Virus record (IMG/VR): IMGVR_UViG_3300021197_000877
Span: 1-46,858 of that record
DNA: 46,858 nucleotides
Source: a virus
Strand: one strand, 5' to 3'
Both the position numbers and the translations under genes were made by a program. Positions within the stretch are counted from its first letter, which is position 1, and every line of letters begins with the position of its first letter. This document shows, one piece after another, positions 15,590-45,771 of the stretch. The notes beneath the pieces were generated by a model that had not been told where the DNA came from, did no database searches, and saw only the letters and a program-made list of their open reading frames with translations.

Positions 15590-18500
15590 ATGGCTGAGAT
15601 TAAGCACAATTTTGCCGGTGGTAAGATGAACAAGGATGTAGACGAGCGACTCGTTCCTAACGGAGAATATAGAGACGCTATGAACATCCAAGTTTCTACT
15701 TCAGAGGGGCCTGACGTTGGCACGATACAAAATATACTTGGTAACGAAGAGGTTAATATGCCTAACGTGTCTGATAATTCTATTTGTGTTGGTTCAGTTG
15801 CTGATGAAAAAAATGATGCTTTTTACTGGTTAGTTAAAGAAAACTACGAAGAAACTTTCTCAATCTCTAATCCTAGAGATATAATATTTCAACATAAAAA
15901 CAATATCACAACACACGTTTTTGTTGATATAAAACCACCTACAATATCAGTCGCTACTCTTCAAGCTCCAAGTTCTGGAAATATAATTATAAATTCTTTA
16001 GATGGAATTAACGCTTTATCTGTTGGAGATAAGTTAGTTAATTGGACGGATAGCGGTTTATCTATTGGATCGGATTTTGTTATTATACAGAGTATAGATG
16101 TAGGTACCTTAACAATTAACGTTGGTGATTATACTAATGCCGATTGGGCAAATCACCAGCCGTCATCACAAACTCCTGGAGTAATAAACTTTCAAATAGA
16201 AAACTCAGGTGGTGTTTTAAACTTTCCAGATAATACAATAACAGGTATAAATATAATTGATGACTTATTATTTTGGACTGACAACGCTACGGAACCAAAA
16301 GTAATAAATATACTTAGAAGTATAGAGGGAACAAATCCAACTGGATTACAACACACCTTACTTGTAAATGAAGAACAAAACATAACAACCTCATCTGGGA
16401 TTGATATAAAAGAAGAACATATAACCGTTATTAAAAAATCTCCTAAAACTGTTCTTACCGTAGACTCACAAGGTGACGAAGAATATTTATTTGGAACCAC
16501 TGACGTTACGCAAAACTTTTTAATTGATCCAAGTGACGCTACTCAAGGTAACATGCTTATTGGAACTCAATTTAATATAGTTTTAGTATTGGACACTTCG
16601 TTTGTTTCTGAATCTATTTCAGAAGGAGATATAATACTTTTAAACCCAGTTGCCGACAATGACATGCCCAACGAAGAGCACGTCGTAGCTGTAGAAGTAA
16701 TTAATCAAGTAGGAAGTGGTGGTCAGTTATTTAACGTTGAATTAGTAAGTATAGACACTTCAACCTCCACAAGTAACCAACAATATAATTGGGCGGTAAA
16801 ACAGGCTGGTATTAAAAAATTTAAAAATACGTTTCCTAGATATTCATATAGATACAAATACGAAGATGGAGAGTATTCTTCGTTTGCTCCGTTTACCAAC
16901 GTTATATTTAAACCAGGAAGTTTTAAGTACGAACTTAAAGAAGCTTACAACATTGGAATGGAAAACACTATTTCAAAAACAGTGCTTTATGGTTATAATT
17001 CAAATTTACCAGAAGGAGTAGTTTCAATTGATTTGTTATATAAAGAATCTAACTCTCCTGTTGTTTATACAATAGATACTATTTCCGGTCAAAAACTACT
17101 TTCTCAAAATGGTAGCGAAGTAAAACCTCACCAAATACAAGCGGCTTTACCAGAAAACCAACTGTTAAGACCTTGGGACAACGTTCCTAGAAAAGCTCTA
17201 GCTCAATCTATAACTGGTAATAGAATAGTATATGGTAATTATTTGCAAAACTATACTATAGATAAAAATAGTTCGTTTTTAAATGCCGGCTTAACAAACA
17301 GAAGCCTTTGTGATCTTACTGAGTTTCCAAACACAATAGCAATACCTGGAGTTCCTTCTTTAAAATCTATTAGAAACTACTCTTTAGGTCTTTCTTACTT
17401 AGATCAATACGGTAGGCAAACACCTGTTTTTACTCATAAAAAATCTGATTTAACAATACCCATAAATAAATCTACACAAGCCAACCAAATAAGATCTGTG
17501 CTTACAGGTGAAATCCCTTCTTGGGCAACTCATTACAAAATATTTGTTAAAGAAACTAGTAATCAGTATTACAATTTAGCAATGGAGCGAATTTACGACG
17601 CTAAAGATGGTAATATTTGGTTAGCCTTTCCTTCTTCTGATAGAAACAAAGTAGACGAAGAAACATTTTTAATATTAAAAAAAGGTGTAGAAGGATCGCC
17701 AGCTGTTAAAGAAAAAAATAGATATAAGATATTAGCTATAGAAAATGAAGCCCCAGAGTTTATAACAAAAAGAAAATACGAAATAGGTTCTGTAAACGAA
17801 AATGGTAGTGGTACTTTTCCAGGAACGTATTTTAGCAACGCAAACTCATATCCTTTAACTGGCACAAAAAAAGTAATTTTAAATAAAACAAATTGGGATA
17901 TTGTTGGACTACCATTAACAGACGTTTCTGATATAGAAGTTGTATTCACCCGTGTAACTCCTACTGGTACGGTTCAAACCTCACAAGTTTACGATGTTGT
18001 TAATTTTAAAGCTGATACAACAGCTTCACCTCCAGAATACCATATAATACTTTCTAAACCCTTAGAAGAAGCTTGGATCTCAGACCCTGCTAACCTTTCT
18101 CATCCAGATCCAAATCTTGGTATAAAAATATATGAAAGAGTTTCAAGGACTAACGGTGAATTTGACGGTAGATTTTTTGCTAAGGTTTCTAGAGATATTT
18201 ACATAAACGACTACGTTACTATGCAGGCGGCGAATGATATAAACATTGCTCAAGTAGCTACCGCTCAAATTCCTTTTTATTATTTAGCCGATGGAGGTAA
18301 TCCTTATAATGGAGATAACACCACTAGTTTTAACCAAAGTGACAGTGTTACTGATTGGGATACTAATTACGGTTCTGCTGGAACAAATGGAAGCGCCTGG
18401 TTTATAGATGCGGCGTGGTATGGTGGTTATTTTGCTCCAGGATCTGAAACAACTGCTTTAAACAAGCATGGTTATGGTCATTACTACGGAAGCAATAGTT

Positions 18501-21500
18501 CTAACCAAACTATTCATTACAACGGTAGTTATGATTTAATGCCAAATTCTAATAACACTGGTTTTAACAAAGGCATATGGACAGATGGAAATGGTCAAAC
18601 TTGGATTTATCTTTCTTACGGTAGAATAGAATCTACAGAAGCTAATGTAAGTGTTCATTGCTCAACGCCGTCCAAATTACATACTAGCGCAAACATTGGA
18701 AGTAGTCAGGTTACTAACGCGACAATGTGTGTTAATTGGAATACTGGAGCTGGAAATTGTACGGACACTGGTAGAGAAGCTTTGCACGAAGGTCTTTATG
18801 ATTGGGAAGGCAACGAAGATATGCTTAAGCACTGGAGATTAGGTAGCGCTAGCACAAACCCAGCGGAGGCAGACGTACAAGTTACTGCAAATTTAGTCGA
18901 AGGTAATAGATTTGTATTTTTAGGTGATTCAACAGGAGAAGTTTATAAAATATCAGCACCAGTGGAGGTTTATTACCATCTTTCACATTTTAACTCTGAC
19001 GACATGCGATCTGGTTTTAATGATGCTTATGGTGTTTATAACACTGGTTCTTCAGGAAGCATGCAGTACGCTGCTACAGAAAAATTATTTGATTGGCAAG
19101 AACAATACGGTCATTCTAGAAACAGAAGAATTACATATAGAGTACCTATCGACAAAGATCCTACAGCTCAAAGTTTTAATCCTATTGCTAGTGGAAATGC
19201 AGATCAGACTAATTTAGGTACAATACAGTTTATAGAAGATCAATGGTTGTTAGGTGACGATAATGTCATTCCTCAAAACCCAGCGGTTTGGGAAACAGAA
19301 CCAAAACAAGATATTGATATGGACATATATTACGAACTTGAAAGTACGTTTCCTTTAACTATAAACAATAGTACAAATTATAATTTTGCTCCCATAGAAA
19401 CGATAGTAACACATCCAGATCCTGTTTATCAATTTCCATCTAACGCAACTGTTGTTGGTTGGGAAAATAACATTGTTGAATTAGACCAACCACTTTCTGA
19501 AGTTGGTTTCGGCACTAATCAACAGAACCAAGGAATGTTAACGTTCCATAGAGAAGATGGTAGTTGCGTTACAGCTACTTTAGTAGGTTTGGCAGAGCCA
19601 ATAGACCAAAGTGGACCAGAAGACACTTCTTTTCATCTTGAAATAAACCCAAATGTTAGCACGAATCCTGTTAATCTTTCTTGGTTTAATTGTTATTCTT
19701 GGGGTAACGGTGTAGAGTCTAATAGAATTAGAGATGATTATAACCAAGTTTTTATTGATAAAGGTGCAAAAGCATCTTCGACTATAGAAGAGCCTTACAA
19801 AGAGGAGCATAGAAAATACGGTTTAATATATTCTGGATTATACAATTCAACAAGTGGAGTTAACAATTTAAATCAATTTATACAGGCGGAAAAAATAACT
19901 AAAGATATAAACCCTACTTATGGTAGTATTCAAAAACTACACGCTAGAGATAGCGATTTACTTGCTTTTTGTGAAGACAAAGTTTTAAAAATACTATCTA
20001 AAAAAGACGCTGTATTTAATGCTGACTCAAATCCACAGTTAACAGCTACAAATAGAGTGCTAGGACAAACAATTCCTTTTGTTGGAGATTTTGGTATATC
20101 TACTAACCCAGAGTCTTTTGCTGCAGAGTCTTATAGAGCTTACTTTACAGATAGAGTTAGAGGAGCTGTGATGAGATTATCAATGGATGGGTTGACTCCT
20201 ATTTCAATGCACGGAATGAAGGATTGGTTTAAAGATAACTTAAAGTTAAATAACAATATACTTGGAAGCTATGATGATAAAAAAGACGAGTACAATATCA
20301 CGTTACAACAAACAACGGAAGAAATACCTAAAACAATATCGTTTAAAGAAGACGTTAAAGGTTGGGTAAGTTTTAAATCGTTTGTACCTGAAAACGCTGT
20401 TAGTTGCGCTAATGAATATTATACTTTCGATAAGGGTAGAGTTTGGAAACATCACGTTGAACAATTTGACCCGGTTGGTAAGGAAATTAATAGAAACACT
20501 TTTTATAACATCCCTAGAGACTCTTCGTTTGAAGTATTATTAAATGACGTTCCTGGAAGCGTAAAATCTTTTACTACATTAAACTACGAAGGTAGTGACT
20601 CAAGAATTGTAGAAAATCTTTTAGATAATGATTACTATAATCTTTCAAATAGAAAGGGTTGGTACGTCGATAAAATATCTACAGATTTAGAAACTGGTGC
20701 TTTAAATGAATTTATAGAAAAAGAAGGAAAGTGGTTTAACTATATAAAAGGTGAGAACATACAGGTAGATGAATCAACAAACAACATATTACTAAATAGT
20801 GATGGTAGCTCTACTTTTGATCAAGCTAGTTTCGCTATTCAAGGATTTGGAATATTACAATATCCACCAGTTGAAACATCTATTTCTGGATGTACAGATT
20901 CAACAGCTTATAATTATAATCCAGATGCTACAGTTGATGATGGTAGTTGCGAAGCGTTTTTATATGGTTGTTTAGAACCATCTGCAGACAATTATTATGC
21001 TGGCGCTAACACGGCTGATTTATCTTGTTTATGGTTTGGATGTACTTGTACAACTTTTATTGATGGATGTACTAACACAACTCAATTTCCACCAGAAGCT
21101 TATACTTTTAACAATGGATCTGGAATTACGGATGATGGCTCGTGTACCGCTATAGTTTACGGTTGTACTGACCCATTAGCGTCAAATTATAATCCAAACG
21201 CAAATACAGATGATGGTAGTTGTATAGTTGTTGTAAATGGATGTTTAATACCTTCTGCTAATAACTACGATCCATTAGCAAACACTAATGACGGAACGTG
21301 TACTTGGACTGGGTGTACTCATCCTCTAGCTTTAAATACCACGGTGTTCCCTGCTGAAGCTACTAATTATATTGCTTTTGCAGGAGCTCAATATGGAATA
21401 CAAGACGATGGATCTTGTATAGGTAGTGGCTGTATGGATACTACTGCGACTAACTATGATGCAGCGGCTGTATACGATATTTTAAATGCTTCTGCTCCTG

Positions 21501-23173
21501 ATTACTCAAGTACAAATGGTTCTTGTTTATATTGTGATTGGAGCGCACCAGGAAATAACGCTTACAACGGGATTCCTGCTACTGTCAACGCTATAGATAC
21601 TACTGGAACGCCTTATAACAATGGGATTATAGAAGTTACCGCGAACTCATTCGCGCCTTATCTCCCATTTACTTATGTATTAGAAAACTCAACTGGTTCT
21701 ACTAATTTCGGTTCTGTAACAAGTAGTCTGGTTACAACTTTTTACAATTTACCTGCTGATACATATACAGTTTATTTAACAGCAAATAATGGGATTTGTG
21801 ATTATACTATTGCAAACATTGTAGTAAACGTAGGTGCCGCGCCTCCAGTGTATGGTTGTACGGATCAAACTGCTTGTAACTATGATCCATTAGCTGATAC
21901 AAATCAGGGTTGCGAATGGACTACGTGTGCTGGATGTATGGGTTTAACAGCTAACAACTTTGGTACGCAGACAAGCTCAAATATTCCTTGTTACCTAAAT
22001 GGAACGTACAACACTGGTCCATGTACAATTGCTTGTGGTGATGGTAATAGCAACACGGACTTTGGTGATTTTTGTTGTACTTATACTTCTGGTTGTACAG
22101 ATCCAATCGCTACAAACTTTGATCCAATGGCAGCGATAGATGATGGTTCTTGTATATATAATATTCCTGGTTGTACAGATCCTTTAGCAACTAATTACAA
22201 CTCAGCAGCAACGGTAGACGATGGAAGCTGTCAGTATACTAGTAATGGTTGTACAGACTCCAGCGCTTGTAACTATGATGTTGGCGCTACGGTTGATGAT
22301 GGTAGTTGTGTGTATGGATTTAGCAACCTTATAGTTGGTGATCCAGCCACTGAGGATGGAAATGGAAACCCCGTACCAATACCTGTTTTCTATGATGACC
22401 CTAACAATCCTGCTACGACTGTTAAGCATCATATATTCCCTACTGCGGTGCCTGCGAGTTCTCAATATCCTAACACTACTTACACTACCGCGTTACCGTA
22501 TTATCCAGCGGATACATTAACAGAAAACGATTTAGGTTTTAGTTTCCAGTCATTATCAACAAATATGCAGCAGTATGGTAGTAGCGATAAAATTATTATA
22601 GAACTTTGGAAAAACACACCAACTGGAGCTGTATTAGAGCTTACAAAAGAAATTACAAATCCACAGTTCTTTAATCTAAACGGGTTACCATTTGGAGATC
22701 GTGTTAATAGTTTACCTTATGGTTTTGGACAAAACTTTGGAGTGCTTTCCTTAAATGATTCTACTAATTATGAATTTGATATATATGAATCAGACGGCGT
22801 TTCAAAACAACTATACTCTGTTGTGTTAAAATCAGAAATTAATGGGGTAGTTTATGGAGATGTTACTGGTTCAACACCTAACTGTGGTGCTTACAAGCCT
22901 TTCCAATTTTATACATTAACAACTTGTGATCATCCGTCTGCAACATTTGGTTGTACAAATCCATTAGCATGTAATTACGATCTAAGCGCCACGTGTCCTG
23001 AACCTTGTAATTTCCCAACAGTAATACCTTATATGTGGGGTAATGATCCTAATAACGCGAGTCAAAATATATGCCAACAAGCTCCTTGTACTTTTACTGG
23101 TACGACCTATCCTGATCTCAACGCATGTTGTGTGGCTAATAGCTCAACCACATCGCCTTGTCCAACAATTTAA
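15590..23173 (+). CDS. Giant tail-hub/DNA-stabilisation protein with Cys-rich repeat C-terminus
   Basis: This 2527-residue protein opens with FAGGKMNKDVDERLVPNGEY, a signature of podoviral tail hub or packaged-DNA stabilisation proteins (P22 gp10/T7 gp12-like class). Residues up to about 1760 are beta-rich, and near 1440-1620 the text (YGSIQKLHARDSDLLAFCED onward, RAYFTDRVRGAVMRLSMDGL) looks like beta-propeller strands, as in those hub proteins. From residue 1767 the protein changes to about a dozen Cys-bounded repeats of form GC(T)D(x)xAxNY(N/D)Px(A)xxDDGSC, with one SprB-like module, ending at about 2475. There is no signal peptide. The virion role is inferred from the N-terminus and position. 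The repeats are typical of Bacteroidetes surface proteins and may bind host or Ca2+. Confidence 0.7.
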   Translation: MAEIKHNFAGGKMNKDVDERLVPNGEYRDAMNIQVSTSEGPDVGTIQNILGNEEVNMPNVSDNSICVGSVADEKNDAFYWLVKENYEETFSISNPRDIIFQHKNNITTHVFVDIKPPTISVATLQAPSSGNIIINSLDGINALSVGDKLVNWTDSGLSIGSDFVIIQSIDVGTLTINVGDYTNADWANHQPSSQTPGVINFQIENSGGVLNFPDNTITGINIIDDLLFWTDNATEPKVINILRSIEGTNPTGLQHTLLVNEEQNITTSSGIDIKEEHITVIKKSPKTVLTVDSQGDEEYLFGTTDVTQNFLIDPSDATQGNMLIGTQFNIVLVLDTSFVSESISEGDIILLNPVADNDMPNEEHVVAVEVINQVGSGGQLFNVELVSIDTSTSTSNQQYNWAVKQAGIKKFKNTFPRYSYRYKYEDGEYSSFAPFTNVIFKPGSFKYELKEAYNIGMENTISKTVLYGYNSNLPEGVVSIDLLYKESNSPVVYTIDTISGQKLLSQNGSEVKPHQIQAALPENQLLRPWDNVPRKALAQSITGNRIVYGNYLQNYTIDKNSSFLNAGLTNRSLCDLTEFPNTIAIPGVPSLKSIRNYSLGLSYLDQYGRQTPVFTHKKSDLTIPINKSTQANQIRSVLTGEIPSWATHYKIFVKETSNQYYNLAMERIYDAKDGNIWLAFPSSDRNKVDEETFLILKKGVEGSPAVKEKNRYKILAIENEAPEFITKRKYEIGSVNENGSGTFPGTYFSNANSYPLTGTKKVILNKTNWDIVGLPLTDVSDIEVVFTRVTPTGTVQTSQVYDVVNFKADTTASPPEYHIILSKPLEEAWISDPANLSHPDPNLGIKIYERVSRTNGEFDGRFFAKVSRDIYINDYVTMQAANDINIAQVATAQIPFYYLADGGNPYNGDNTTSFNQSDSVTDWDTNYGSAGTNGSAWFIDAAWYGGYFAPGSETTALNKHGYGHYYGSNSSNQTIHYNGSYDLMPNSNNTGFNKGIWTDGNGQTWIYLSYGRIESTEANVSVHCSTPSKLHTSANIGSSQVTNATMCVNWNTGAGNCTDTGREALHEGLYDWEGNEDMLKHWRLGSASTNPAEADVQVTANLVEGNRFVFLGDSTGEVYKISAPVEVYYHLSHFNSDDMRSGFNDAYGVYNTGSSGSMQYAATEKLFDWQEQYGHSRNRRITYRVPIDKDPTAQSFNPIASGNADQTNLGTIQFIEDQWLLGDDNVIPQNPAVWETEPKQDIDMDIYYELESTFPLTINNSTNYNFAPIETIVTHPDPVYQFPSNATVVGWENNIVELDQPLSEVGFGTNQQNQGMLTFHREDGSCVTATLVGLAEPIDQSGPEDTSFHLEINPNVSTNPVNLSWFNCYSWGNGVESNRIRDDYNQVFIDKGAKASSTIEEPYKEEHRKYGLIYSGLYNSTSGVNNLNQFIQAEKITKDINPTYGSIQKLHARDSDLLAFCEDKVLKILSKKDAVFNADSNPQLTATNRVLGQTIPFVGDFGISTNPESFAAESYRAYFTDRVRGAVMRLSMDGLTPISMHGMKDWFKDNLKLNNNILGSYDDKKDEYNITLQQTTEEIPKTISFKEDVKGWVSFKSFVPENAVSCANEYYTFDKGRVWKHHVEQFDPVGKEINRNTFYNIPRDSSFEVLLNDVPGSVKSFTTLNYEGSDSRIVENLLDNDYYNLSNRKGWYVDKISTDLETGALNEFIEKEGKWFNYIKGENIQVDESTNNILLNSDGSSTFDQASFAIQGFGILQYPPVETSISGCTDSTAYNYNPDATVDDGSCEAFLYGCLEPSADNYYAGANTADLSCLWFGCTCTTFIDGCTNTTQFPPEAYTFNNGSGITDDGSCTAIVYGCTDPLASNYNPNANTDDGSCIVVVNGCLIPSANNYDPLANTNDGTCTWTGCTHPLALNTTVFPAEATNYIAFAGAQYGIQDDGSCIGSGCMDTTATNYDAAAVYDILNASAPDYSSTNGSCLYCDWSAPGNNAYNGIPATVNAIDTTGTPYNNGIIEVTANSFAPYLPFTYVLENSTGSTNFGSVTSSLVTTFYNLPADTYTVYLTANNGICDYTIANIVVNVGAAPPVYGCTDQTACNYDPLADTNQGCEWTTCAGCMGLTANNFGTQTSSNIPCYLNGTYNTGPCTIACGDGNSNTDFGDFCCTYTSGCTDPIATNFDPMAAIDDGSCIYNIPGCTDPLATNYNSAATVDDGSCQYTSNGCTDSSACNYDVGATVDDGSCVYGFSNLIVGDPATEDGNGNPVPIPVFYDDPNNPATTVKHHIFPTAVPASSQYPNTTYTTALPYYPADTLTENDLGFSFQSLSTNMQQYGSSDKIIIELWKNTPTGAVLELTKEITNPQFFNLNGLPFGDRVNSLPYGFGQNFGVLSLNDSTNYEFDIYESDGVSKQLYSVVLKSEINGVVYGDVTGSTPNCGAYKPFQFYTLTTCDHPSATFGCTNPLACNYDLSATCPEPCNFPTVIPYMWGNDPNNASQNICQQAPCTFTGTTYPDLNACCVANSSTTSPCPTI
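20888..23010 (+). repeat. Cys-rich GCTD...DDGSC protein repeats in the tail-hub gene
   Basis: About 10-13 imperfect units encode GCTD(S/P)(x)AxNY(N)P(x)AxxDDGSC, for example GCTDSTAYNYNPDATVDDGSC split at its ends and GCTDPLATNYNSAATVDDGS. Units are spaced by short linkers or by larger inserts. The DNA is diverged, so recent expansion is not evident. The Asp-rich end looks calcium-binding, and paired cysteines suggest disulphide-stabilised units. Such units are common in secreted proteins of marine Bacteroidetes. Confidence 0.85.
21620..21845 (+). other. SprB-like beta module inside the tail-hub gene
   Basis: Between two GCTD repeats lies a module of about 75 residues that runs IEVTANSFAPYLPFTYVLEN, then VTTFYNLPADTYTVYLTANN and GICDYTIANIVVNV. 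The order xGxIxVxAxG..PFxYxLxN...(F/I)xNLPAxTYTVxxxxxNGCxxxxxIxV is that of the SprB repeat found in Bacteroidetes gliding adhesins. It was probably taken from a host surface protein. The call is by pattern. Confidence 0.5.
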
Positions 23174-26431: not shown

Positions 26432-26935
26432 ATGCCTAAAAATGAGTTACAAAAAATATTCGATAAGACACCTGTTAAATCTTATAGAGAAAAAATAAAG
26501 TATATAGAAAATTACCTTGTAAGTATTGCAGATGGAATAGAAATTGTTGGAAACGGTAAGGAGTTAGTCTACCCAGATTTTTGGGAGTACAAACATTCTT
26601 TTGCTGAGGGAATATATATTAGAGAGATGAAAATGAAAAAAGGTCAAGTAGTTTTTTCAGCAATACACAAACACAGTTATCCATTTTTTCTACTATCAGG
26701 TAATTTAGCTATATCTTCAGAAAAAGGAGTTGAAGAGTTTTTAGCCCCTTATTATGTGGTTACACCTAAAGGAACAAAAAGAGTAGGTTACGCAATTGAA
26801 GACAGTATAGTAGTGACGGTACACGCGAACCCTAGTAACACCGAAGATTTAAAAGAAATAGAAAAAATGAATGTTGTATTTGAATGGGAGGAGTACGAAG
26901 AATATTTAAAAAGTAAAAATGAAAAAGGCAATTAA
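26432..26935 (+). CDS. Cupin-like protein
   Basis: This 167-residue protein starts after an ATTAAATTAAATT leader. The central part follows the cupin double-stranded beta-helix pattern: KKGQVVFSAIHKHSYPFFLL with two histidines at 79 and 81, then SGNLAISSEKGVEEFLAPYY and VVTPKGTKRVGYAIEDSIVV, ending with TVHANPSNTEDL. H79, H81 and the His near 132 could bind a metal, although the usual Glu of motif 1 is replaced by Phe/Tyr. It lies between tail and internal virion genes. Possible roles are enzymatic modification of the surface or a structural use of the fold; neither is shown. Confidence 0.6.
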   Translation: MPKNELQKIFDKTPVKSYREKIKYIENYLVSIADGIEIVGNGKELVYPDFWEYKHSFAEGIYIREMKMKKGQVVFSAIHKHSYPFFLLSGNLAISSEKGVEEFLAPYYVVTPKGTKRVGYAIEDSIVVTVHANPSNTEDLKEIEKMNVVFEWEEYEEYLKSKNEKGN

Positions 26936-36816: not shown

Positions 36817-37140
36817 ATGACAAAAGAATTAAACGAGGATACAACTTTTAAAATGAGCGTCAAAACTATGATAGCTTTAGGTTTTGGTATAGCCACTTTA
36901 ATAGCTGGGTGGTATTCGTTGATGGCGGAAATACAGTTGGCTAAAGAAGAACCAGTACAAGTGGATGTCAATATTCTTAAAGAAGAGATTTTAAAAGAAA
37001 TACCTGAGGCAGAAATAACTAGAATGGAGTTTGACATGAAAGACCAGATGATTAGGCAAACTATAATGACTACTCAGTCAGATGTAGAGGAAATAAAAAA
37101 AGCTTTAGAAAAAATAGAAGACAAACTTTATAACAGATGA
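36817..37140 (+). CDS. One-pass membrane protein with coiled-coil tail
   Basis: This 107-residue protein has a charged N-terminus, one membrane helix at about 17-38 (MIALGFGIATLIAGWYSLMA) and an acidic, helical C-terminal domain (MEFDMKDQMIRQTIMTTQSD, then VEEIKKALEKIEDKLYNR). It shares ATGA with the next gene. Its layout fits an inner-membrane-anchored protein with a soluble coiled coil, such as an i-spanin, a signal-anchor holin-type protein or a lysis regulator. No Rz-type partner lipoprotein is seen. It heads a tightly overlapping cassette of exported proteins, so an envelope role is likely. Confidence 0.6.
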   Translation: MTKELNEDTTFKMSVKTMIALGFGIATLIAGWYSLMAEIQLAKEEPVQVDVNILKEEILKEIPEAEITRMEFDMKDQMIRQTIMTTQSDVEEIKKALEKIEDKLYNR

Positions 37141-37463
37141 AAAAATTAATATTATTATTTGCTTTGGTAACTAACTTGTCTTTTAGTCAAATACAAGTAT
37201 CTATTTTTAACGCAAGTTGGAACGAAGCTAATAATGTTGATTGGGTGTCAGAGTTAAAAGACGTGAAAACAACGTCTTACGTGGATATAAGTAAAAACAC
37301 AGAGCTACAAAAAAAACATAAAATAGCAGTTGTACCAACTATTATAATATTTAAAGATGACGAGGAGGTTGCTAGATTTCAAGCTGACTTAAGTTTTAAG
37401 ATGGTAGCAACAAGAGAAGAGGTGCAAGAAGAAATAGACGAACAACTAATGAGTGATTTTTAA
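37137..37463 (+). CDS. Exported thioredoxin-fold protein without CxxC
   Basis: This 108-residue protein starts with a signal peptide (MKKLILLFALVTNLSFSQ), with likely cleavage around residue 17-18. The mature part has the thioredoxin layout: strand VSIFNASWN (residues 21-29), helix, second strand SYVDISKN, and a cis-Pro segment VVPTIIIFKDDEEVARF with P67. The CxxC after the Trp is replaced by NEAN (29-32), so disulphide exchange is not expected. It could be a chaperone or adapter in the periplasm. It overlaps the previous gene by ATGA and is followed one base later by the T9SS-type cargo gene, suggesting co-translation. Confidence 0.65.
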   Translation: MKKLILLFALVTNLSFSQIQVSIFNASWNEANNVDWVSELKDVKTTSYVDISKNTELQKKHKIAVVPTIIIFKDDEEVARFQADLSFKMVATREEVQEEIDEQLMSDF

Positions 37464-37464
37464 A

Positions 37465-39651
37465 ATGAAAAAAATACTATTAATATTATTACTACCTATA
37501 ATAACTTTTGCTCAAAAAGAAGTTGTTGTACACATAAAAACAGATACTTATCCAGGAGAGACTAAATGGACTTTATATAAAGATGTTTATCAAGGCGATA
37601 CGTTGGCCTTTGTTTCTTACGGTCATTATGATTCTGCTAACACTATGCATTATGACACGGTGTATATTCCAGATAGTATAACAAACATATCTTGGGTTAT
37701 ACAAGATCAGTATGGAGATGGTATAAATAACGGCGAATATTACGTCACTATATGTAACGATACAATTATTAGTTATCCAGTTAGTACTTTTAACACTGGT
37801 TTAATACATAACAGAACTGTTCCGCAGTGTATGCCTCAACCACCACCGTTACAAATGGTAGGCGCTAAAGTTATAATAAACTTAGACCAATACCAAAGCG
37901 AAACTAGTTGGGATATAAAAGATACAAATGGGGTAACACATGCTTCTGGCGGTAGTTATAATGCGCAACCTGATTATGCTACGGTTGTTATTCCAGTACA
38001 GATACCTAAAGGACCATTAGTATTTACTATTTATGACACTTACGGAGATGGATTAAACGGTAGTTTATGGCAAGGGCAAGATGGTTCTTATTATTTAAAA
38101 CAGTGTAATGACACATTAATATACGGGACTGATCCCGCGTTTGGCAATGACACGTCACACGTATTTACATCTGATTCTTGCCCACCTATATATGGATGCA
38201 CAGATAACGATTATTTAGAGTGGAATCCTTTTGCAGATGTAGATGATGGTAGTTGCCAAACGTTAAAAATATTCGGTTGTACAGATAGCACGATGTACAA
38301 TTATGATTTAAGTGCTAATACCATGGAATTAATTGATACGTGTACATTTAAATTAATACTACACGATTTAATGGGTAATGGCTGGGTAGGATCCCATTTA
38401 AAGTTAATACATCCTGACACATCATATGAATTTACGCATACCGGAGGATTTGATGATGTATACTATGTAGGATTAACTGCGCCAGACCCTATAACACTTA
38501 GATTTCATATATCTTCACAGGCTAGCTTAACGACTATAGAATGTGGATTTACTTTAATAAACCCAGAAGGAGACACAATGATAAGTATACAACCTCCTTT
38601 TATACAACCCTTGCTACCTTATCAATTAATAACAAATTGTGGTAACACATGTGAAGAAAAAGTATTTGGTTGTTTAGATTCATTAGCTATTAACTATGAC
38701 AGCACTGCTAACACAAGCGACGGTAGTTGTTATTATCTGCCCGGTTGTACTAATTCTTCTTACCTAGAGTATTATACACAAGGCTTTGTAGCTGATTATA
38801 ATAATGGGTCTTGTTTAAATCAAGCGATATGGGGATGTACTGACTCAACAGCGTTTAATTATGATTCGACAGCAAACATTGATAACGGTGGATGCTTACC
38901 AGTTATAATGGGGTGTATGGAAAGTTTAGCATTTAATTATGATGCACTAGCAAACACGCCTGACACATGTATAGCATATTTTTACGGTTGTACTGATCCA
39001 ACTATGTTTAACTATGACTTATTAGCAAACACTGATGACGGTAGTTGCGAACCTTTTGTTTATGGATGTATGGATTCCACTATGTTTAATTTTAACCCAC
39101 TTGCCAATGCAAATGATACTTGTATACCTTTTATTTATGGCTGCACTGATCCGTCTATGTTCAATTATCAAATGTTGGCGAACACGGAAGATTTTAGTTG
39201 TATGCCTTATATATATGGGTGCACCGACAGTGCTGCCATTAATTTTGATTCTCTTGCTAATACCGATAATTTTTCTTGTATTAGTAGAGTTTATGGATGT
39301 ATGGATCCGTCTGCTTACTCATATAACGAAATAGCCAATATCAACGTAGAAGATTCTTGTTTTTATGATGCTGGTTGTGTTACTGGTCCTGGATCACCTT
39401 ATTGGTTAAACAACCCTTGTTACGCTTGGGTAATAGATGTAGACGATTACTGTTGTGAAAACGGGTGGGATACTATATGCCAGGCTACTTATAATTATTG
39501 CGAAGGAACCTGGGTAGGACCACTTCCAAAAAGAATGTCAAGCTTAATAATGATAACAGATATATTAGGTAGACCAGCTGAAATAACTAAAAATCAATTA
39601 CTGTTTTTTATATACGATGACGGAACAGTAGAAAAGAAAATTGTAAAATGA
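37465..39651 (+). CDS. Secreted repeat protein with type IX secretion (T9SS)-type C-terminal signal
   Basis: The ATG at 37465 is chosen over an upstream GTG (37453) because it opens directly with a signal peptide (MKKILLILLLPIITFAQ). The 728-residue protein has tandem beta domains with (I)xDxYGDGxN motifs (about 20-230, two copies). It continues with roughly ten Cys-bounded GC(T/M)D...NY(D)...(A)NT(D)DGSC repeats (244-632), with a third Gly-rich domain inserted. It then has a DDYCCENGWDTICQ cap, and ends (688-728) in ITDILGRPAEITKNQLLFFI and YDDGTVEKKIVK. That end matches the type A T9SS C-terminal domain of Bacteroidetes. It would be exported by Sec and then T9SS to the cell surface. It overlaps the next gene by ATGA. 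Confidence 0.8.
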   Translation: MKKILLILLLPIITFAQKEVVVHIKTDTYPGETKWTLYKDVYQGDTLAFVSYGHYDSANTMHYDTVYIPDSITNISWVIQDQYGDGINNGEYYVTICNDTIISYPVSTFNTGLIHNRTVPQCMPQPPPLQMVGAKVIINLDQYQSETSWDIKDTNGVTHASGGSYNAQPDYATVVIPVQIPKGPLVFTIYDTYGDGLNGSLWQGQDGSYYLKQCNDTLIYGTDPAFGNDTSHVFTSDSCPPIYGCTDNDYLEWNPFADVDDGSCQTLKIFGCTDSTMYNYDLSANTMELIDTCTFKLILHDLMGNGWVGSHLKLIHPDTSYEFTHTGGFDDVYYVGLTAPDPITLRFHISSQASLTTIECGFTLINPEGDTMISIQPPFIQPLLPYQLITNCGNTCEEKVFGCLDSLAINYDSTANTSDGSCYYLPGCTNSSYLEYYTQGFVADYNNGSCLNQAIWGCTDSTAFNYDSTANIDNGGCLPVIMGCMESLAFNYDALANTPDTCIAYFYGCTDPTMFNYDLLANTDDGSCEPFVYGCMDSTMFNFNPLANANDTCIPFIYGCTDPSMFNYQMLANTEDFSCMPYIYGCTDSAAINFDSLANTDNFSCISRVYGCMDPSAYSYNEIANINVEDSCFYDAGCVTGPGSPYWLNNPCYAWVIDVDDYCCENGWDTICQATYNYCEGTWVGPLPKRMSSLIMITDILGRPAEITKNQLLFFIYDDGTVEKKIVK
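38194..39360 (+). repeat. Cys-bounded GCxD repeats in the secreted protein gene
   Basis: About ten units of about 20-30 residues (for example YGCTDPTMFNYDLLANTDDG followed by SCEPFV) repeat in tandem, with most units joined by xxYGC linkers. They are the same family as the repeats in the tail-hub gene at 20888-23010 but show a distinct subtype, with (T/S)MFNY and (L)ANT. This suggests independent origin or divergence rather than a recent copy. Confidence 0.85.
39526..39651 (+). other. T9SS-type sorting signal coding region
   Basis: The last 40 codons encode KRMSSLIMITDILGRPAEIT then KNQLLFFIYDDGTVEKKIVK. The D(I/L)LGRxxxxxxNxxLF(Y/F)IYDDGTVEKK pattern is the Type A C-terminal sorting domain used by Bacteroidetes to send proteins through the type IX system. 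It sits at the extreme C-terminus, as required. Confidence 0.75.
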
Positions 39652-40745
39652 GAAAAATATTAATATTACTTTTACTACCGTTATTTAGTTATTCACAAAT
39701 TAGTTACAAGGGATACGACTATGATATTCAAGAGATATTAAAAAATCAACTAAAGTTTTCTACTGTATATGGGGCAGTAAACGGTGGTACATCTATATCT
39801 GATGTAAAACAATTTTCAGTTATTGATGGTTTACAAACATCAACAATAGAAACACCTTATGATTATTCTATAACTATAGGTATTAGAAAAATAGCTAGGT
39901 TTGGACACGAGAATAAAGCGCAGACATTTTACGATGGCACAGAGTCTAATTATACAGACGCTGCTACCGTAGGTAAAGTACAGGGGTTTGAATATTTATT
40001 TGAAATAGATTACGCTAGACAACAAGGTATAGATTTTATAGATCAACATCATTTTATTAGATATAGCTCTGAAGATGATTGTGACGATCCTTTATGCGTT
40101 AATTATTTTGCCGCTAAAGTAGAGTATTTAAAAGATGGTTTTGCTGATATAGAGTACTTTGAATTATCAGAAAGGTATAGATTTAAAAAAGGTAAAAACC
40201 TAGCATTTAGTATAGGTGCCGTACACAGATTAGCAGAACCATACGGTTACGATCCGCTAGAAGAATGGATCTTGGATAATGGTAACTTACATTACACTTA
40301 CTTAGCAATACAGGAGGGTTACACTATCGACGTTGCTAACAGTGAGTATAAAGATCCAAGCGGAGCAACCGTTGCTAACAGTGCTGACGTTTGGAAAGAG
40401 ATTGTTATACCACAAGTACTAGCAGATTATACTGCCAGAAAAAGAAATGAATTAAGTAGAGTTATACAGCATTCTATTGTTGTAGGTTTTGACTACTATA
40501 AATATAGTAAAAACTATTGGTTACATGCTTGGGGTAATTTACTACCATATCACTACGATGACGGTGGAGAGTTTTCGTATCATAAATACAATAATAACGA
40601 GCAATGGTACGATTATTCAGGTGGAGTTATATTTGGTAGAAAAATAGACAAGCAGCTAGGTATATTTGCAGAGGGTAAATATAATAAGTATTGGAATAGA
40701 GAGTGGTATGATTTTAAATTTGGTATTAATTACATAATAAGATAA
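39648..40745 (+). CDS. Outer-membrane beta-barrel-like protein
   Basis: This 365-residue protein starts inside the previous stop (ATGA) and shares TAATG with the next gene. It has a signal peptide (MRKILILLLLPLFSYSQ) and alternating amphipathic strands (YSITIGIRKIARFGHEN, YLFEIDYARQQG, FAAKVEYLKDGFADIEYFEL, YRFKKGKNLAFSIGAVHRLA). It ends with paired aromatic strands (GIFAEGKYNKYWN and FKFGINYIIR). The final residues follow the C-terminal strand pattern of outer-membrane proteins. It is likely placed in the host outer membrane. Possible roles are an anchor for the secreted partner or superinfection exclusion, both inferred. Confidence 0.65.
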   Translation: MRKILILLLLPLFSYSQISYKGYDYDIQEILKNQLKFSTVYGAVNGGTSISDVKQFSVIDGLQTSTIETPYDYSITIGIRKIARFGHENKAQTFYDGTESNYTDAATVGKVQGFEYLFEIDYARQQGIDFIDQHHFIRYSSEDDCDDPLCVNYFAAKVEYLKDGFADIEYFELSERYRFKKGKNLAFSIGAVHRLAEPYGYDPLEEWILDNGNLHYTYLAIQEGYTIDVANSEYKDPSGATVANSADVWKEIVIPQVLADYTARKRNELSRVIQHSIVVGFDYYKYSKNYWLHAWGNLLPYHYDDGGEFSYHKYNNNEQWYDYSGGVIFGRKIDKQLGIFAEGKYNKYWNREWYDFKFGINYIIR

Positions 40746-41327: not shown

Positions 41328-41504
41328 ATGAAAATAGATTGGATAAATGGTTATAAACCAGGAAATAAAAAAGAAAAATACGAAATAACTTTTAGATTAG
41401 GGACATTTACAGTTTTAGAAATTAAAGCTTGTTTATTCTGTGAAAAAGGATGCACATCTAAAAGATTTAGATTTATGATACTAAATTTAGGGTTTCAAAT
41501 ATAA
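41328..41504 (+). CDS. Small hypothetical protein, 58 residues
   Basis: The ATG at 41328 is used instead of an in-frame TTG at 41301 that overlaps the preceding gene. The product (MKIDWINGYKPGNKKEKYEI, then TFRLGTFTVLEIKACLFCEK, GCTSKRFRFMILNLGFQI) is a small beta-type protein with a CxxC...C-like pair. It shares TAATG with the endolysin gene, which suggests coupled translation with lysis. Weak evidence: the gene is short and may be absent in relatives. Confidence 0.45.
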   Translation: MKIDWINGYKPGNKKEKYEITFRLGTFTVLEIKACLFCEKGCTSKRFRFMILNLGFQI

Positions 41505-41971
41505 TGGAAAACATTAGTAAGCATATTAGCTGGCACGAAGGTACATACAGTAGAACTGGTGAAAGAAGAGATTTAGATAACACTCCTAATGAAGACCAAC
41601 TTAAATGCATGAAAGAAGTTGCTGAAAACTTATTTGAACCACTACGTGAGTGGGTTGGTGGAGGAATAAAAATCAATAGCTTTTTTAGAGGTGAACCAGT
41701 TAACACTGCCATTGGCGGTAGTACTAGATCACAGCACATGAAGGGTCAGGCTATAGATATAGACGATACATTTGGACACAAAACAAATGCAGAAATGTAC
41801 CATTACATAAAAGACAATTTAGACTTTGATCAAATGATATGGGAGTTTGGTACAGATAAAAATCCCAACTGGTTACATATTAGCTGGGTGTCACATAGAC
41901 CTAATAGAAATAAATTAACCATTGCTAAAAAAGTAAATGGTAGAACGAAATACGTTCACGAAGAAAAATAA
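41504..41971 (+). CDS. Endolysin, M15-family D-Ala-D-Ala/L-Ala-D-Glu peptidase type
   Basis: This 155-residue protein has the peptidase M15 (VanY/phage endolysin) signature. The helix KCMKEVAENLFEPLREWVG leads to strand INSFFRG, then STRSQHMKGQAIDID with zinc ligands H78 and D85, and PNWLHISWV with H125 as the third ligand. It has no signal peptide or membrane anchor, so it needs a holin to reach the peptidoglycan. The 3TM holin is at 2406-2798, far away. The single-domain size matches short M15 endolysins, with no wall-binding domain. Confidence 0.85.
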   Translation: MENISKHISWHEGTYSRTGERRDLDNTPNEDQLKCMKEVAENLFEPLREWVGGGIKINSFFRGEPVNTAIGGSTRSQHMKGQAIDIDDTFGHKTNAEMYHYIKDNLDFDQMIWEFGTDKNPNWLHISWVSHRPNRNKLTIAKKVNGRTKYVHEEK

Positions 41972-43899: not shown

Positions 43900-45771
43900 T
43901 TATAAGCTTGTTATTTCGCAAGATCCACCGGCACAAGCTAATTCACCGGATAAATCTGTATTGTCGTCAGACTCTACAATTTTAGATAAATCTATATTTT
44001 GAAGAGTTTTTGACATTTCATCATACTTAGTTTTAGTAACATCCTCAAACGGAGCTTGTGTATATGTACCTCCATCATAAGGTAAAACAGATAAACCATT
44101 ATAGTTATTTCTATTTTTCCACATCCATTCACCAGCTTTTTCCCACTCATTTTCTTTTAATGATATTGTAGCTGAAACATTATGAGTGTTACTACCTGAT
44201 TTGTGACCAGGCTTAACCCACTCTGTAGCTATTTTCTTTACACGATCTAAAAGATCAAAAGCAGATTCAGTTCTAACAATAGAACCTTTTGGTGCGGCTT
44301 GTGGTATTTCTATAACCGCAGTATCATGAGGTCTAAAGTATTCATCTTCTATAAGCTCGGGATGGTTAATGGCAAGATAGTTGTAAATTGCTTCATTTTT
44401 ACCCACGCGCATTCTACGAATGTAATACTTATTATGCCAAGCATGTATACCTGATGACGTTCCAAGTACTAAAGATGTTGTACCCGCAGGTTTAACGCAT
44501 GTTGTACGCGCTGCAGATTTAATACCTATAGTCTTAGACGTTAATCTATTCATCAGTTTAACATGGTCAGCAGCTTCATGTATATTTAATTTAAGAACCT
44601 TGCCAGAGGCTATGCCTGTCATTGACACACCTATAAGAGCATCTTTTTCAGTGGTCTCTTGCCAAACTTCTCTTAAATAATGAAACTCTGTGTAACCAGC
44701 TTGTAACGTACCTATAAATGAAGCAGCAGCAACTCTATCGTTTAATTCCTCTTGCGTGTCTACATCTGATACATTTACTTCACATAAGTTACAAAATTGA
44801 AACGGCCGTAAGGCTATTTCGCAACAAGGGTTTGTGCCCCAGTCTTTGTCGTTATTAAAATATATACCAGGCTCACCAGAACCTGATAATTCAATACGTT
44901 TCCATAAGTCCATAAAAAATTCTTTAGTTATTTTATGTCTTATTAATACAGCAGAGTTGTTAGCTCTACCACGTTGTGGATCTTTTTCCCACCAATTACC
45001 TGATTTACACGAAATCATTTCTTCATCGTACGCTGAAAATAACGATATAAGTGCGGCACGTCGTATTCCCCCAGCCAGTACAGCGTCCGCAATGTGGCAG
45101 ACGATATCGTGGACTTCAAGCGATGATAATTTTTCTCCATCTTGTTTTGCATCTAATATTCCTTTAATTTTTACTAAACATTCTCTTAATGGTTGCGGTC
45201 CAGGTGCTTTTCCTCCAGAGGTCACAAGACGTGCTCCCTTTGGTCTAATATCAGAATAATCAAATTTTATCTTAGATGATCTCTTAGAGCCTAAATAAGA
45301 CTTGATTAAAACTTTTATTGCGTCAGACCAACCCTCAATACTATCACCAATAACAAACCTACGTTTTCTTATGTTGTGTGGTTTAACTATTTCTGGTAAT
45401 TTTTTTATACTGTGTAATTGTACTGAGTAACCTACGCCACACCCACTAAGTAAAAGAAACATAACCTCGCTAAAAGCGTCAATATGGTCAATAGGTAAAT
45501 AAGCGCAATTATATAGACGGTTTGGACTAATTTCGATTGGCTTACCACCAAACTGTAAACTTCGCATAGAAGGAAGGACTTTTTTTTCATATACATATTT
45601 ATAGTAAGTATTTATATCATTTTCTAAACTTGGGTACTTACGAATGTGCATTGCTTTGTTACGGTCAACTAACTCCTCCCAAGTTTCTCTTCTCTGTAAC
45701 TCAGGGATATACTTAGCATATTTCATGTGTACAGTTATATCCGAGAGTATTTTATTATTTATTTCTTTCAT
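43900..45771 (-). CDS. Adenosylcobalamin-dependent (class II) ribonucleotide reductase
   Basis: This 623-residue enzyme reduces ribonucleotides to deoxyribonucleotides for phage DNA synthesis. Visible motifs: GCGVGYS with C111 (matching the reducible Cys of monomeric RTPR); NPCCEIAL at 314-321, in which C316 is the radical Cys and E318 the catalytic Glu; FCNLCEVN at about 326; TCVKPAGTTSLVLGTSSGIH; and a C-terminal C613-x4-C618 pair, as in the shuttling cysteines of Lactobacillus RTPR. It is about 100 residues shorter than the Lactobacillus enzyme. It overlaps the upstream nuclease gene by 17 bases. The host or environment must supply cobalamin. Confidence 0.9.
   Translation of the reverse strand: MKEINNKILSDITVHMKYAKYIPELQRRETWEELVDRNKAMHIRKYPSLENDINTYYKYVYEKKVLPSMRSLQFGGKPIEISPNRLYNCAYLPIDHIDAFSEVMFLLLSGCGVGYSVQLHSIKKLPEIVKPHNIRKRRFVIGDSIEGWSDAIKVLIKSYLGSKRSSKIKFDYSDIRPKGARLVTSGGKAPGPQPLRECLVKIKGILDAKQDGEKLSSLEVHDIVCHIADAVLAGGIRRAALISLFSAYDEEMISCKSGNWWEKDPQRGRANNSAVLIRHKITKEFFMDLWKRIELSGSGEPGIYFNNDKDWGTNPCCEIALRPFQFCNLCEVNVSDVDTQEELNDRVAAASFIGTLQAGYTEFHYLREVWQETTEKDALIGVSMTGIASGKVLKLNIHEAADHVKLMNRLTSKTIGIKSAARTTCVKPAGTTSLVLGTSSGIHAWHNKYYIRRMRVGKNEAIYNYLAINHPELIEDEYFRPHDTAVIEIPQAAPKGSIVRTESAFDLLDRVKKIATEWVKPGHKSGSNTHNVSATISLKENEWEKAGEWMWKNRNNYNGLSVLPYDGGTYTQAPFEDVTKTKYDEMSKTLQNIDLSKIVESDDNTDLSGELACAGGSCEITSL

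Follow-up and report, generated by a model that had tools for sequence, protein, structure and literature searches.

Short C-terminal tails exchanged with type A sorting domains in a viral Cys-repeat protein family with predicted T9SS-dependent export

Does a phage send one of its own proteins to the surface of the infected cell through the T9SS of its host? The question is raised by a gene in the IMG/VR record IMGVR_UViG_3300021197_000877, a 46.9-kb phage contig with terminase, portal and capsid genes. The whole stretch analysed, 46,858 nucleotides, is called the window here. The original prediction placed an open reading frame at 37465-39651 and assigned to its product a Sec signal peptide, Cys-repeat domains and, at the C-terminus, the type A T9SS sorting signal of Bacteroidetes. 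The reading frame is present and encodes a protein of 728 aa, referred to below as the cargo. It is the third of four genes packed tightly head to tail, several with overlaps of a few bases; the ATG of the fourth overlaps the stop of the cargo gene. The genes and the parts of the cargo are as follows.

36817..37140, + strand: module gene 1, 107 aa, one N-terminal hydrophobic helix and a coiled, charged C-terminus (helix and coil by eye)
37137..37463, + strand: module gene 2, predicted exported thioredoxin-fold protein without CxxC (Pfam Thioredoxin, E=8e-5)
37465..39651, + strand: cargo gene, Cys-repeat protein with a Sec-type N-terminus and a short T9SS-type tail (728 aa; ATG at 37465, stop ends at 39651)
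37465..37515, + strand: Sec signal peptide MKKILLILLLPIITFAQ, residues 1-17, followed by KE (by inspection; helix at 2-15 in the AlphaFold2 model)
37513..38178, + strand: two beta-sandwich domains with GDG motifs, residues 17-120 and 131-238 (AlphaFold2 strands, pLDDT ~65-89; GDG at residues 84 and 194)
38194..39372, + strand: Cys-rich repeats GCTDxxxxNYDxxANxDDGSC, residues 244-290 and 402-636, with a beta domain in between
39376..39504, + strand: CYAWVI.VD.YCC...WD.ICQ.TY.YC element (CC/WD), residues 638-680 (invariant columns in the homolog alignment)
39541..39648, + strand: short C-terminal sorting tail, residues 693-728 (motif B-like DILGR, D-like LLFFIYDDG, E-like VEKKIVK)
39648..40745, + strand: module gene 4, predicted exported outer-membrane beta-barrel of ~12 strands (model pLDDT 75)

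As predicted, the cargo has an N-terminal Sec signal, of Bacteroidota style by inspection, and ~10 Cys-rich repeats of the GCTDxxxxNYDxxANxDDGSC type were counted in its sequence. The dN/dS between near relatives is 0.06-0.15, thus the cargo is a constrained gene, and its signal peptide and tail are retained across divergent viruses. The fold prediction is of low confidence overall (pLDDT 58.7) and Foldseek searches with the model gave unspecific matches only. In the AlphaFold2 model the tail forms three strands, at residues 694-699, 711-717 and 722-727, with pLDDT ~60-68.

The tail, ITDILGRPAEITKNQLLFFIYDDGTVEKKIVK, consists of ~36 residues. The residues that the original prediction had quoted are present and are followed by three more (...TVEKKIVK). 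An HMM made from bacterial short tails only, run on the 552 six-frame ORFs of the window, matched the end of the cargo ORF with E=2.3e-19 and 63.9 bits, an E-value that is not independent of the retrieval because the bacterial tails were fetched with the viral tail as query. The maximum score over 20 shuffles of every window ORF was 8.7 bits, and the match is not one of chance. The curated type A model, TIGR04183, has no match in the cargo or anywhere in the window record, and no Pfam or NCBIfam model matches the tail. The cargo lies below the curated cut-off of 23 bits and is ruled out as a TIGR04183 type A member. Thus the search proposed for the C-terminus came back empty and the literal claim that the cargo carries "the type A signal" fails, whereas targeting to the T9SS is supported by the tail exchanges described below. 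When profiles of the short tail and of type A tails were compared, the match was not significant (probability 2.9%); homology of the two found no support there, and their common descent is unproven.

The short tail shares several features with the type A domain (TIGR04183 / PF18962). It stands at the extreme C-terminus of Sec-exported proteins (signal peptides by inspection), and by eye it has look-alikes of motifs B (DxxGR), D (L.FYIYxDG) and E (VEKKII.). It differs in length, ~36 residues against 70-100, and in the absence of motifs A (YPNP) and C, besides being unmatched by the curated model. The type A domain has an Ig-like seven-strand fold, which could hardly be accommodated in 36 residues. 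In type A signals the last 22 residues, containing motifs D and E, are enough for secretion of GFP. The lysines at the end are needed, and contact with PorV is modelled for motifs B, D and E (PMC10202324). The cargo tail has counterparts of exactly these three motifs: DILGR (B), LLFFIYDDG (D) and VEKKIVK (E). The short-tail motif was not found in print in the literature searched.

The short tail is also found in bacteria. An alignment of it was scanned against 84,980 bacterial and archaeal genomes, one per species, and the matches, judged by record titles, are in marine Flavobacteriales or Bacteroidetes MAGs and single cells. The tail is terminal in all of the 78 best bacterial loci, with 0-7 residues between the aligned match and the stop, and the proteins that carry it are otherwise unlike (PHB depolymerase/esterase, LRR, Kelch, SprB, PKD, LVIVD). 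Seventeen genomes hold 2-51 short-tail copies each, and every one of them holds type A proteins as well, 23-150 per genome. T9SS genes had been suggested as something to look for in the host, and SprA is indeed present in 15 of these 17 genomes, taken as representing a host that is itself predicted. Since SprA is found in 191 of the 198 genomes of a class sample, co-occurrence of the short tail with the T9SS is weak evidence, and as proof of T9SS dependence it was set aside as uninformative. Either tail occurs in a family of host esterases, with seven short-tailed members (two of the seven assigned by eye or by pattern) and many type A-tailed ones. Modularity and exchange of this kind are the pattern expected of a sorting signal. 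The tail of one esterase, L194, reads AVYDLTGRVIDVEQVLAGELYVYRFSDGSFEKRVIN and looks intermediate between short and type A tails.

The same exchange is seen among viruses. One scan of viral contigs found homologs of the cargo at 78 loci, and tails were typed in the 72 of these with a complete C-terminus. The tail is short in 51 and a type A-like domain in 21, the latter reading YPNPT...VYN..G..I...LD.S....G.Y...I.Y..K.I..KIIK. All seven type A-tailed homologs tested against TIGR04183 scored above its cut-off, at 27-48 bits; the short-tailed homologs L001 and L006 had no match to it. On a tree of the ectodomain only, the tail type switched ~10 times, and at least nine switches are forced by well-supported branches. 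Two pairs of neighbours with unlike tails, L006/L014 and L010/L013, are inside the window's own subclade. Because neighbouring homologs carry different tails, either tail can substitute for the other. When the viral sequences were scanned again, this time with the short tail, 78 new loci came up. Of these, 77 belong to the cargo family and one is a short fragment; the tag is thus not spread widely among the proteins of phages. That a phage gene carries a T9SS sorting tail thus holds for the cargo family, through its 21 type A-like homologs; the window copy itself is short-tailed. The predicted T9SS targeting gains its support from the repeated replacement of a true type A domain by the short tail, in viral homologs and in host esterases, and not from the type A HMM through which it was to be established. 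No relatives of the cargo, the barrel or the thioredoxin-like protein were found in the phages collection, apart from a single weak match, in the repeats, to a single-cell virus. Three genomes related by TerL or MCP, two of isolates and one uncultured, have no TIGR04183 protein.

The genes that flank the cargo form with it a conserved module. Near the cargo at the 78 viral loci, homologs of gene 1 are found in 69, of the thioredoxin-fold gene in 69 and of the barrel in 63, in an order that varies among loci. Purifying selection acts on each of the four (dN/dS ~0.05-0.3). The product of 37137-37463 is predicted to be a redox-dead thioredoxin-fold periplasmic protein; by eye, there is no CxxC in the window copy nor at that place in the listed homologs. 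The CxxC site is replaced by FNASWNEANN, and the cis-Pro region and C-terminus (PTIIIFKD.EEV.RFQADLSFKM) are strongly conserved across viruses. The same module with a type A-tailed cargo (L173-L175) occurs on a phage contig of 43 kb, C32 of genome G242, in a Flavobacteriales bin. That contig carries DNA polymerase, RNR, DnaB-like and UvsX-like genes, and no relative of the window terminase or capsid proteins was detectable on it.

The position of the barrel gene directly after the cargo gene resembles T9SS type B (TIGR04131), in which a cargo gene is followed by its cognate PorP/SprF shuttle. The phage genes differ in that the short tail is unmatched by TIGR04131 and in that the barrel family has no PorP/SprF model match, neither to Pfam for the window barrel nor to NCBIfam in 44 members. 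With no sequence match, the barrel was ruled out as a PorP/SprF or PorV homolog. Its model is also closest to another kind of barrel. Structure comparison (VIA-align) ranked KdgM/NanC-type 12-strand and autotransporter barrels first (KdgM porin Z 14.7, NanC Z 14.3), with no T9SS protein among the matches listed.

Terminase relatives, near to distant, are found on cargo-bearing contigs of ~40-120 kb. In the phages collection the TerL and MCP relatives are phages of Flavobacterium, Cellulophaga, Tenacibaculum and Maribacter, plus one uncultured genome. One phage contig carrying the module was binned with a genome from the family of a short-tail MAG, which has 16 short-tail places of its own, although contamination of the bin is possible. 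The likely hosts are marine Flavobacteriales. Elsewhere in the window, a holin-family gene (2406-2798) and an M15 endolysin (41504-41971) are far apart and flank the structural genes, among which 26432-26935 encodes a 167-aa protein that is cupin-like by eye. A ribonucleotide reductase on the minus strand (43900-45771) belongs to phrog_367 and has a B12-dependent insertion-domain match in Pfam.

On these comparisons of sequence, export of the cargo is likely to depend on the T9SS. Because the short tail stands in for a known T9SS tag, the phage probably has the infected cell display the cargo on its own surface, and surface export is an outcome we infer with good support. Sec would export the cargo to the periplasm. 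There the T9SS translocon and its shuttle would read the ~36-residue tail through its equivalents of B, D and E, A and C being missing, and the Cys-repeat ectodomain would reach the outside or the surface of the cell. The cargo may act together with the three co-conserved envelope genes, which are predicted to encode an inner-membrane protein, the redox-dead thioredoxin-fold protein in the periplasm and the outer-membrane barrel. Its most likely use would be a remodelling of the infected cell's surface late in infection.

Alternatively, the tail could serve marine Flavobacteriales as a C-terminal signal for export or anchoring whose reader is an unknown system other than the T9SS. Such a system would explain why the tail is unmatched by any T9SS model and its profile not significantly similar to type A, and it would fit the lineage-restricted distribution of the tail, which is in 9 of the 198 class genomes whereas the T9SS is nearly universal there. 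We consider it unlikely, since true type A domains are swapped one for one with the short tail, repeatedly, in the viral family and in the host esterase family; the look-alike motifs B, D and E and the intermediate tail of L194 also argue for the T9SS. Less probable still, and very improbable in our view, is that the cargo is a virion component, a fibre or adhesin, its signal peptide and tail being remnants or serving assembly at the envelope. Its gene does lie within the structural and lysis region, and a virion protein of the window (15590-23173, 2527 aa) has ~12 similar Cys-rich repeats in its last third, at about residues 1767-2475. These repeats are absent from all seven homologs of the virion protein found in related viruses, so the sharing of repeats is not general, and the two proteins were rejected as a matching repeat pair. 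Sec export is not normal for virion proteins, and the retention of both signal peptide and tail under purifying selection across divergent viruses speaks against remnants.

With T9SS-dependent surface export as the preferred reading, the role of the cargo may be considered; the original prediction had offered a block to superinfection, remodelled adhesion or altered aggregation of infected cells as candidates. The leading guess, a tentative one, is superinfection exclusion or receptor masking. A broader set of roles, in which the cargo would let the infected cell adhere, aggregate or capture nutrients, or would assist lysis and release, is a serious contender that stops just short of being probable. 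Large bacterial proteins of the likely host group that have terminal type A domains contain the same repeats, and the module is near the M15 endolysin; the constant pairing of the cargo with an outer-membrane barrel and a periplasmic protein, however, fits a change of the envelope equally well as adhesion. A more ambitious proposal is that the four genes make up a self-contained surface-display system of the phage, with the barrel as a dedicated shuttle that catches or anchors the cargo, and that the short tail is a distinct class of T9SS signal, one that occurs on tens of proteins in each genome among marine Flavobacteriales and is absent from current annotation. We regard this as speculative and rather unlikely.

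If the preferred reading is right, a T9SS cargo would be a conserved, selected trait of a large group of marine flavobacterial viruses (78 loci in one scan) and not the curiosity of a single phage. Secretome predictions based on TIGR04183 would overlook the short-tag proteins, of which some marine Flavobacteriales have tens per genome. Should the short tag suffice for secretion, it would be a near-minimal natural T9SS signal and would help to settle which motifs the machinery reads.

The closest known proteins by repeats are the GCTD/DGSC surface proteins of Flavobacteriales, which share the same repeats; identity in the better matches is ~40-60% over stretches of 100-230 residues. Several of these proteins terminate in type A domains. 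They are mostly larger than the phage cargo, and no full-length relative of it was seen among them. The original prediction was right that phage use of the T9SS is not commonly described, though there are precedents. A T9SS domain was noted in 2019 on a BACON protein of a gut phage (PMC6949934). In 2020 a phage-encoded T9SS cargo was described in Cryophage, for which hijacking of the host system and superinfection exclusion were suggested (PMC7468147). Both are like the present case in having phage proteins with T9SS tails that are presumed to be exported by the host machinery. Their cargo proteins, however, comprise enzymes, PA14 proteins and BACON proteins, and the T9SS sorting domains annotated on them are standard ones, whereas the window phage has one Cys-repeat cargo, a conserved four-gene envelope module and an uncatalogued short tail. 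As far as our searches show, two of these are new: the ~36-residue tail as a class of signal absent from the catalogues, and the conserved envelope module of four genes.
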